23,062 nucleotides of DNA from a virus, in IMG/VR virus record IMGVR_UViG_3300021424_000245, positions 1-23,062 of that record, one strand, 5' to 3'. Both the position numbers and the translations under genes were made by a program. Shown piece by piece: positions 1,852 to 4,085 of this stretch. The notes below the pieces were generated by a model. It saw only the letters and a program-made list of their open reading frames with translations. It was not told where the DNA came from and did no database searches. Every line of letters starts with the position of its first letter. Positions within the stretch are counted from its first letter, which is position 1.

Positions 1852-2535
1852 ATGGCAAAAAAACTACAGAATCAACAAAACCATTTTTCTTTAAGAAGAA
1901 TCAAGCCGTTGACCTTAAATCAAGAGGACACATTTAACGCCTTTAATGAAGGCAAACATTTACTTTTACATGGTGTTGCCGGAACAGGTAAAACATTTAT
2001 AACACTTTACTTAGCATTAAATGAAGTTCTAAAAGGAAATTCTCTTCAAGATAAAATAGTTATCATTCGCTCTGTAGTCCCAAGTCGAGACATGGGATTT
2101 TTACCAGGAAATGTAAAAGAAAAAACAAAAGTATACGAAGAACCATACCGAGAAATTTGTGATGATCTATTTGGTCGTGGCGATGGTTATGATATACTAA
2201 AGACTAAAAAACTTATTGAATTCGGCACAACTTCATATTTAAGAGGTGTAACCTTCAAGAATGCCATTGTAATGGTTGACGAATCGCAAAATATGAATTA
2301 CCATGAGCTTGATACAATCATTACACGAATTGGTGATAACTGCCGTATTGTGTTTTGTGGTGATTACCGACAAAGTGATTTAAATTCAAAAGAACGAACA
2401 GGTTTGCTTGAGTTTATGAAAATCATAGATAAAATGGGATGTTTTGATAAGATTGAATTTGGTGTTGAAGATATTGTTCGATCTGAATTGGTAAAAAATT
2501 ATATTGTGACTAAATTGGAATTAGGTTTTGCGTAA
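1852..2535 (+). CDS. phoH: PhoH-like P-loop ATPase
   Basis: The product is 227 aa from the ATG at 1852, preceded by AAAGGTAG. An upstream in-frame start at 1813 lies inside the terminator stem and is rejected. Walker A is GVAGTGKT (residues 41-48), Walker B is VMVDESQN (140-147), and a GDYRQSD motif (170-176) follows, all typical of PhoH and related superfamily 1 helicase-like ATPases. PhoH-like genes are very common in marine phages, also outside phosphate-stress contexts. The precise role is unsettled, with proposals ranging from RNA helicase to RNase partner. It is followed with an 8-nt overlap by the exonuclease gene, so the pair is likely translated together. Confidence 0.92.
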   Translation: MAKKLQNQQNHFSLRRIKPLTLNQEDTFNAFNEGKHLLLHGVAGTGKTFITLYLALNEVLKGNSLQDKIVIIRSVVPSRDMGFLPGNVKEKTKVYEEPYREICDDLFGRGDGYDILKTKKLIEFGTTSYLRGVTFKNAIVMVDESQNMNYHELDTIITRIGDNCRIVFCGDYRQSDLNSKERTGLLEFMKIIDKMGCFDKIEFGVEDIVRSELVKNYIVTKLELGFA

Positions 2536-3187
2536 CTTTGAATTTGTAAAATTAAAATCACTAGACTACGATCTTAAAGCAGTAACAACAGATGATGGAA
2601 GAGTGTACGAAACACCGACAGGTGAAAAGTATCCTTCCATCACTACTGTTCTTTCTTCTTATAACAAGAAAGCTTTGTTTGAATGGCGTGAGCGTGTAGG
2701 CGCTGAAGAAGCAAATCGTATTTCTCGAAAGGCTTCAAGTCGAGGCACAAAACTTCATACGATTTGTGAAAAATATCTTTTAAATGAATCTGACGGCATA
2801 AAGTTTAAAACTATGATGCCTGATACCAAAGAATTATTTCTTCAACTTAAACCACATATTGATGAAAATGTTGGTCGTGTGTTTGGCATTGAACAAGCAC
2901 TTTTTAGCCATCGATTGAAAATTGCTGGTCGTTGTGATTGTATTGCAGAATGGAATAATCAACTTTCAATTATTGACTATAAAACGGCTTCAAGAGAAAA
3001 AAGTGAAGACGGCATTTTAAACTATTTTATGCAATGCACTGCATACGCTGAAATGTTTGAAGAACGAACTGAATTGCCAGTAAATCAGATTGTGGTTGCA
3101 ATTGCAGTTGAAGACTCACAACCACAAATCTTTGTAAGGGAAAAGCATAAATACCTTAATGCGTTAATGAATTATATTGCTGTATGA
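2528..3187 (+). CDS. PD-(D/E)XK exonuclease (RecB/Cas4-like)
   Basis: The product is 219 aa and appears to start at TTG (2528), overlapping the phoH stop, with TTAGG just upstream. No in-frame ATG precedes the conserved N-terminal region. Motifs fit the RecB-type nuclease family: SRGTKLH (residues 71-77) as the N-terminal motif, IEQALFSHRLKIAGRCD (121-137) with Asp137, IIDYKTA (148-154) giving D-x-K, and QCTAYAEMF (169-177) as the Q-x3-Y motif. The family degrades DNA ends from single- or double-stranded DNA. In phages it may serve host DNA breakdown or recombination. A late-promoter-like box lies inside its 3' end, and the permuted tmRNA begins right after the stop codon. Confidence 0.85.
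   Translation: MRNFEFVKLKSLDYDLKAVTTDDGRVYETPTGEKYPSITTVLSSYNKKALFEWRERVGAEEANRISRKASSRGTKLHTICEKYLLNESDGIKFKTMMPDTKELFLQLKPHIDENVGRVFGIEQALFSHRLKIAGRCDCIAEWNNQLSIIDYKTASREKSEDGILNYFMQCTAYAEMFEERTELPVNQIVVAIAVEDSQPQIFVREKHKYLNALMNYIAV
3146..3153 (+). promoter_or_regulatory. T4-late-type box ahead of the tmRNA
   Basis: CATAAATA followed by C matches the T4 late core TATAAATA at 7 of 8 positions. It lies inside the exonuclease gene, about 40 nt before the tmRNA acceptor piece begins, so transcription would start near 3159. The same kind of box occurs at 11797-11804 and 19580-19587. It is a candidate only, since the core is AT-rich and can occur by chance. Confidence 0.45.
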
Positions 3188-3440
3188 AGCAAAGAGAAAA
3201 GTGTTCTGGACGGCGGTTCGACTCCGCCCATCTCCACCAAGAGCATATTAGAAATAGTGTGTTGTTGCTGGGGATGAAATGGTTTCGACAGGGCAAATAG
3301 TAACAGAGTGGACAGCACGACACAGAGAGTCGTTAAAAGTAAATCAAGTAAATGCAAACGATGAAAAGTTCGCATTAGCAGCCTAAACACTGCTTAGGGT
3401 TCGGTGGGTTCCTCGTAACAGAATACCCACCATTTATTAA
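3188..3440 (+). ncRNA. ssrA: circularly permuted two-piece tmRNA
   Basis: tmRNA rescues stalled ribosomes and tags the nascent protein. Here the gene order is permuted. The acceptor piece (about 3190-3239) carries GGAC, a T arm (GGCGG 3212-3216, TTCGACT, CCGCC 3224-3228), CATCTCC (3229-3235) and ACCA. An intervening segment (3240-3269) follows. The coding piece then starts with GGGGATG (3270-3276), which pairs with CATCTCC in 7 bp including one G-U. TGGTTTCGACAGGG is the hallmark tmRNA D-loop region. ACGAC/GTCGT (3317-3333) forms a hairpin where pseudoknot 1 should lie. The tag frame 3354-3386 reads ANDEKFALAA then TAA. A strong hairpin follows (GGTGGGT 3403-3409, ACCCACC 3425-3431). CAGAGT (3304-3309) can pair with GTTCTG (3203-3208) as helix P2. 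Exact outer ends are uncertain. Confidence 0.93.
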
Positions 3441-3524
3441 AACAAAATCCCAATCGCCGCAAGAGGCAAATATTTTTTTATGAGACTTTTTAAAGTCTAG
3501 TGGGTAAACTATCTTGAAAGGAAA

Positions 3525-4085
3525 ATGATGGGAGCAAAAACCTTATTTTTTGGATTGTCATTAGCAAGTATTATTGTAATGTTGCTAGCAATTCATGTGG
3601 ATACAAGAAGCATTCTACCGATGAAAGCGCCATTTAACGCGCTTAATGCAGAAGCACAAAAACAAATATCGTGTTTAGCTGAGAACATTTATTTTGAAGC
3701 TGCACATGAACCAAAAGATGGCAAAATAGCAGTTGCTTTTGTTACTTTGAATCGCCTACGAACAGGCAATTATGCAGACAGTATTTGTGGCGTGGTCACA
3801 CAAAAGACCAACGGCGTTTGCCAGTTTTCATGGTATTGTGATTCAAACTTTACCACAAAGCGCTTGACAATTAAGAACAGTCCGTTGTATAATGAAATCT
3901 TAGAAATGTCGACCTATCTTTATCTAAACCTACATCGGGTTCAAGATGTTACGAATGGTGCGACATTCTATCATGCGGATTATGTTAATCCTGGCTGGCA
4001 ACTAAAAAAGGAAAAGCAAATTGGTAGACACATCTTCTACAAACGAAGCGGAGATCAAATTGACCGAAACAAAACCATTATATAA
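3525..4085 (+). CDS. SleB-type cell wall hydrolase, membrane-anchored or exported
   Basis: The product is 186 aa. Residues 5-24 are hydrophobic (a signal or anchor), followed by a Hydrolase_2/SleB domain at about 45-178. The key block CLAENIYFEAAHEPKDGKIA contains the Glu (E58) expected to be catalytic. VTLNRL, ICGVVTQK and CQFSWYCD follow in the family order. SleB enzymes are lytic transglycosylases acting on peptidoglycan. In a phage this may be the lysis enzyme, with the N-terminal segment acting as a signal-anchor-release element, but it could also be a virion or entry enzyme. The start at 3525 follows AAAGGAAA; an ATG at 3528 is equally possible. The next gene overlaps its end by 65 nt. 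Confidence 0.85.
   Translation: MMGAKTLFFGLSLASIIVMLLAIHVDTRSILPMKAPFNALNAEAQKQISCLAENIYFEAAHEPKDGKIAVAFVTLNRLRTGNYADSICGVVTQKTNGVCQFSWYCDSNFTTKRLTIKNSPLYNEILEMSTYLYLNLHRVQDVTNGATFYHADYVNPGWQLKKEKQIGRHIFYKRSGDQIDRNKTII

Follow-up and report, generated by a model that had tools for sequence, protein, structure and literature searches.

A betaproteobacterial-type two-piece tmRNA gene in a T4-like phage, and putative protein genes nested in the spacers of its relatives

The 23,062-bp IMG/VR virus record analysed here (IMGVR_UViG_3300021424_000245; the window) carries a complete circularly permuted, or two-piece, tmRNA gene on its plus strand at positions 3177-3434, and we hypothesize, with a probability of roughly 85%, that it is a working phage-borne tmRNA of betaproteobacterial type. 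The gene adds a betaproteobacterial-type branch, found on more than 100 environmental phage contigs, to the few phage two-piece tmRNAs described so far, and there is strong evidence that phage genes of this kind are selectively retained. The relatives further suggest a new gene arrangement, in which the spacer that a structured RNA discards contains protein genes; Melnitz, a phage in culture, offers a direct test of this idea, since it has an open reading frame (ORF) of this type inside its annotated ssrA gene.

ARAGORN called a permuted tmRNA at 3147-3477 with the tag ANDEKFALAA, and two Rfam models matched above their gathering cut-offs: beta_tmRNA (RF01850; 149.9 bits, E = 1.7e-46, cut-off 84) and tmRNA_permuted (RF04321; 137.8 bits, E = 2.2e-27, cut-off 47). 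The alpha and cyano tmRNA models reached 70.3 and 57.6 bits, both below the beta score. The acceptor piece is encoded 5' of the coding piece, the tRNA-like domain is complete (7-bp acceptor stem, G3:U70, T arm, A discriminator and CCA), and an in-frame tag with its stop codon follows (Table 1); judged by sequence and model, the gene is not a chance match. An earlier sequence-only reading had proposed these same searches and had already recognised the permuted architecture, the 7-bp pairing of CATCTCC with GGGGATG, the 30-nt intervening segment and the tag frame with its ALAA end, all of which are found where it put them, and it had noted the likeness of the tag to betaproteobacterial tags, in line with the type found here. 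Its limits for the gene (3188-3440) enclose the right region but begin too late, because the arm at 3178-3183 pairs with 3312-3317, so that the acceptor piece starts near 3177, an end placed from where conservation begins among the relatives. The tmRNA tree that it also proposed was short and poorly supported, and only identities are used here.

Table 1. Features of the tmRNA gene and its flanks in the window.
Feature	Position	Strand	Basis
Exonuclease (phrog_298), directly upstream; stop codon inside acceptor piece	2528..3187	+	ORF list, PHROGs
Acceptor piece of two-piece tmRNA	3177..3239	+	ARAGORN, Rfam; conserved TATTGCTGTATGAAGC block at same place in relatives
UGCUGU arm, pairs with ACAGCA 3312-3317 of coding piece	3178..3183	+	pairing in Rfam models
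UGUUCUG, 7-bp helix with 3289-3295, joins acceptor and coding pieces	3202..3208	+	MFE and centroid fold
T arm: stem 3212-3216 / 3224-3228, loop TTCGACT 3217-3223	3212..3228	+	sequence; T stem covaries in relatives
Acceptor stem 3' half CATCTCC (3229-3235), discriminator A 3236, encoded CCA 3237-3239	3229..3239	+	sequence, relatives
Intervening segment, 30 nt, hairpin extending acceptor stem, no ORF	3240..3269	+	fold and spacer survey
Coding piece	3270..3434	+	ARAGORN, Rfam; 3' end inferred
Acceptor stem 5' half GGGGATG	3270..3276	+	sequence, relatives
Hairpin ACGAC/GTCGT 5' of tag, short form	3317..3333	+	sequence, relatives
Tag frame ANDEKFALAA and stop (GCA AAC GAT GAA AAG TTC GCA TTA GCA GCC TAA)	3354..3386	+	ARAGORN
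3' hairpin GGTGGGT/ACCCACC of coding piece	3403..3431	+	sequence; Rfam
Endolysin-like hydrolase (phrog_938), downstream	3525..4085	+	PHROGs

Within the acceptor stem the G3:U70 wobble, the mark of alanine tRNAs, is formed with 3272. In the fold of the precursor at 3174-3320 (-47.4 kcal/mol, z -3.3), the acceptor stem, the T stem and the spacer hairpin are all present. From G3270 the coding piece runs through GGGGATG, the conserved TGGTTTCGAC, the tag and the 3' hairpin, and many relatives have about 22 nt more than the window between G1 and the tag. The exonuclease ORF runs into the UGCUGU arm with its final codons and the region of its stop (GCT GTA TGA; 3178-3187). A minus-strand ORF at 3172-3390 was regarded as spurious. 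As the sequence-only reading had supposed, the virus is T4-like: PHROGs matches in the window comprise PhoH-like and exonuclease proteins together with homologues of T4-type gp32 (SSB), gp4 (head closure), gp19 (tube), and gp25 and gp6 (baseplate wedge).

What we infer for the phage is a chain of transcription, processing, charging and ribosome rescue that would be to its benefit. The gene would be transcribed as one precursor, probably with the upstream exonuclease, and host tRNA-maturation enzymes would cleave this precursor 3' of the encoded CCA and 5' of G3270. The 30-nt hairpin would be thrown away, and the mature molecule would consist of two RNAs, acceptor and coding, joined through the acceptor stem plus two other helices. 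A host synthetase would charge this tmRNA with alanine, host SmpB would bind it, and ribosomes stalled in infection would be rescued with the addition of ANDEKFALAA, so that host trans-translation would be supplemented rather than re-coded. A profile search for SmpB found none in 18 phage records, the window included (a control search was positive in 10 of 14 genomes), and because of this the phage tmRNA must presumably rely on the host for SmpB, as also for alanyl-tRNA synthetase and the maturation enzymes.

Relatives were collected by an exonuclease search, which gave 80 related loci, and by DNA patterns, which gave more than 100 further contigs; among the matches listed, ARAGORN dissected 135 distinct permuted tmRNAs. 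The tag ends in LAA in 112 of 132 distinct phage copies among those matches, other ends including LMAA, RIAA, SIAA, AFA and LAV, and by sequence the window tag is of the ordinary kind, its ALAA end being that of an ordinary ClpXP-type degron. The tags of L020, L025, L077, L147 and L371 have LMAA or RIAA in place of ALAA, which may alter the choice of protease. Tags of 26-32 residues occur in L003, L118, L138, L282 and L283; some long tags are without the LAA end (for example, AKANTQSGVKVTVGKGFRFGGSKSARTEAAFA), and several have a common SFTGN(T/S)V motif. A very large phage contig (L343, the record behind L148; 338,510 bp) has a permuted tmRNA with the 28-aa tag AKASTNGSFKFSGKGVKLASARREAVLA.

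It is possible to imagine that the RNA serves mainly as a decoy, titrating host SmpB, alanyl-tRNA synthetase or EF-Tu and thereby damping host trans-translation. Phage DS6A provides a precedent, as it has the tRNA-like domain only, with no tag, and a molecule of the same form inhibits endogenous tmRNA in E. coli (PMC11915505, PMC4131195); the loss of the usual tag end in some relatives (LMAA, RIAA, AFA, LAV) points the same way. The window tmRNA, however, retains a full tag with its ALAA end, a resume region, a stop codon and the structures of the coding piece, all of them needless for a decoy, and we therefore consider such a role unlikely.

That a working tmRNA is maintained is argued for by the acceptor stem, whose halves lie on separate pieces. 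Across the 58 distinct phage tRNA-like domains among the matches listed, every one of the 406 cells formed by the two halves is paired, whereas re-dealt partners give 323 pairs on average and never more than 346; 57 of these domains retain the G3:U70 alanine determinant, and all 58 the A discriminator. Perfect pairing of divergent halves, set against the re-dealt partners, is strong evidence that the phage tmRNA is under selection and functional at the RNA level.

Nothing promoter-like lies directly upstream of the acceptor piece in the window, so the gene is most simply, and probably correctly, read as co-transcribed with the exonuclease. A candidate T4 late promoter, CATAAATA at 3145-3152, was rejected as it falls in exonuclease codons (KHKY), and TATAAATA, sought in the same check, is absent from the window. 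Among 99 distinct upstream regions of relatives, consensus matches (rather than mapped starts) to a sigma70-like promoter, with at least 10 of 12 positions matching and the -10 ending 4-14 nt before the conserved TTGCTGTA, were found in 27 (random mean 0.6, maximum 2), and 30 of the regions have TAAATA, the core motif of late promoters of the T4 type, at a distance of up to 26 nt (random mean 1.3, maximum 4). The timing of tmRNA expression thus seems to differ between phages. The suggestion of the sequence-only reading that the gene acts late in infection finds no support in the window, which has no strong promoter directly upstream of the gene, and the relatives have either host-type or late-type motifs.

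The 24 relatives in which ARAGORN found nothing were rechecked by covariance model, and 8 have a tmRNA. Some related contigs, including the 157-kb record behind L031, are without a match to the tmRNA covariance model, so the tmRNA is dispensable within the group. In L005, a complete tmRNA, with a spacer that differs from the window's by one base, is preceded at a distance of 2 kb by a decayed relic of the tmRNA acceptor 5' half (2363-2403). Both this dispensability and the decayed fragment would suit a captured host gene without function, carried as a passenger of the exonuclease operon; yet the perfect compensatory pairing of two separate pieces across divergent copies, and the promoter-like motifs just upstream in relatives, speak against such a passenger, which we regard as very improbable. 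An assembly chimera of a bacterial tmRNA and a phage contig, to which the tag shared with a plasmid-borne bacterial tmRNA might point, is already contradicted and barely credible, since L004 matches the window virus over 7.5 kb with 99.7% identity, the same tmRNA is present on three IMG/VR contigs, the arrangement is seen on IMG/VR contigs of several metagenomes, and syntenic relatives have a tmRNA behind the same exonuclease.

While the two pieces of the tmRNA are conserved, the segment between them is not, and its length among relatives varies from 24 to about 266 nt. In close relatives, both flanks (roughly 80-90% nucleotide identity) and both tmRNA pieces match the window, and the spacers are entirely different: 119 nt in L012, 74 nt in L017, and 214 nt in L011, in which the exonuclease is 96% identical. 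Because spacers differ so completely between otherwise matching relatives, the spacer is, on this comparison, a hypervariable cassette site within a conserved gene. We think it likely that in aquatic T4-like phages small protein genes are exchanged at the tmRNA spacer, which would also serve as mRNA, and, within that reading, the window, with its plain 30-nt hairpin spacer and no nested ORF, would quite probably be a cassette-free allele.

The nested ORFs have a characteristic layout, with a Shine-Dalgarno sequence (AAAGGAG, TAAGGA) directly 3' of the CCA and an ATG about 11-14 nt into the spacer; the reading frame usually terminates at the UGA within the conserved UGAU immediately 5' of G1. 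In sets fetched regardless of spacer, and with the ORF required to reach within 16 nt of the spacer end, a spacer-filling, Shine-Dalgarno-led small ORF was found in 20 of 98 distinct spacers of at least 50 nt among the matches listed, against 1.1 expected from dinucleotide shuffles (maximum 3 in 200). Homologous nested ORFs differ mainly at synonymous positions: pooled with one pair per family, the count is about 38 synonymous against 40 nonsynonymous changes, the expected synonymous share being 21% (binomial p = 4e-8, a guide, the pairs being hand-chosen and the changes not fully independent). The nested protein of L011 (63 aa) matches PHROG 1679 (E = 8e-6) and is 79% identical to a free-standing one about 1 kb downstream of the L078 tmRNA, and L089, L112 and L168 have further free-standing homologues of nested proteins. 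In Melnitz (L333; MZ577097.1, about 46096-46260), the annotated tmRNA has in its intervening segment an ORF that the record does not annotate, with the product MFKWLSKTRLVVITRDYFRERNRKADAKIPKYLSGTRSVYDGG... (nested peptide sequence MFKWLSKTRLVVITRDYF...); this ORF has homologues in 18 environmental loci, and those inspected (11 dissected by ARAGORN and four others) all lie inside a tmRNA spacer. That nested genes in tmRNA spacers are real is well supported by such comparisons, and no description of them was found in the literature searched, the reach of which stopped short of Sharkady and Williams 2004.

Other spacer contents were also seen. The L343 spacer has a nested gene for an 83-aa hydrophobic protein, with no homologue among named phages, and the spacers of L320, L255, L265 and L270 have two overlapping conserved ORFs in different frames (one short and acidic, one hydrophobic). 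When the non-coding spacers of 17 relatives were searched with Rfam, neither a riboswitch nor any other known RNA came up; the spacers of L012-L016 and L021 (119 nt), L075, L160 and L185, which match no Rfam family, may be small structured RNAs of some other kind.

The acceptor stem is prolonged by pairing between the two ends of the spacer. Duplexes between a spacer's own ends average -12.0 kcal/mol against -4.8 with swapped partners in non-coding spacers, and -9.0 against -5.8 in coding ones. Among the matches listed, 91 of 124 spacers end in TGAT, as do 32 of the 33 coding ones, and in coding spacers the Shine-Dalgarno stretch lies within the end helix, opposite the last codons. The spacer would act as mRNA before, or instead of, its excision, and it is plausible, if speculative, that translation of the nested gene and maturation of the tmRNA compete.

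Bacterial counterparts were found on plasmids. A distant BLAST search against plasmids identified Cupriavidus (Betaproteobacteria) tmRNAs with 77% identity over 183 bp; these plasmid genes (NZ_CP073678, NZ_CP016951; RF01850) share the window's architecture and encoded CCA, and the one on plasmid p1 of Cupriavidus sp. KK10 also shares the tag, ANDEKFALAA, without any difference and has a 32-nt spacer hairpin ending CTTCTGAT. They differ from the window gene in residing on a bacterial replicon and in their 68% identity over the mature parts. Because of these matches, the KK10 tag included, a betaproteobacterial host for the window virus is likely. Pattern scans of genome contigs for bacterial counterparts gave no match; they demanded a GGGG(A/G)TG stem, which the Cupriavidus sequences lack, so this negative does not argue against such counterparts.

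Permuted tmRNAs are also known from phages. Those of Stenotrophomonas phages (DLP6, Marzo/Menderavirus) and Synechococcus phage BUCT-ZZ01 differ from the window in their neighbourhoods (for DLP6 and Marzo, a cluster of tRNA genes) and have the tags ANDDSFAPMAIAA and ANDETFSMALAA. The nearest precedent for the nested genes is in GCA-2688965, where a permuted tmRNA has a tRNA-Ala gene in its intervening sequence, and another's spacer holds a repeat element (PMC11915505); the tRNA-Ala gene is an RNA gene and a single case, whereas the spacers of the relatives studied here contain protein genes, recurrently. A two-piece tmRNA was described in the isolated T4-like methylophage Melnitz, along with permuted tmRNAs in 17 of 47 Melnitz-like contigs and a total of 53 two-piece structures among phage tmRNAs, all but three of marine or aquatic origin (50 of 53; Buchholz et al. 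2022, PMC9004378), which overturns the novelty that the sequence-only reading had seen in such a gene on a T4-like phage. Melnitz (Methylophilales phage, MZ577097) and Melnitz-like or pelagimyophage contigs resemble the window in having a permuted two-piece tmRNA on a T4-like aquatic phage, and Melnitz does so too in its PhoH and nuclease neighbourhood, standard ALAA-ending tag and lack of a phage SmpB. The Melnitz tmRNA, however, is alphaproteobacterial in type according to its authors, with the tag ANDNYVPVDYALAA and a 142-nt spacer containing the unannotated ORF, in contrast to the 30-nt spacer of the window; the two tmRNAs are 57% identical, and the window scores 70.3 bits with the alpha model against 149.9 with the beta. 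Permuted tmRNAs were thus already known from T4-like phages, and the window gene is a new member of betaproteobacterial type.
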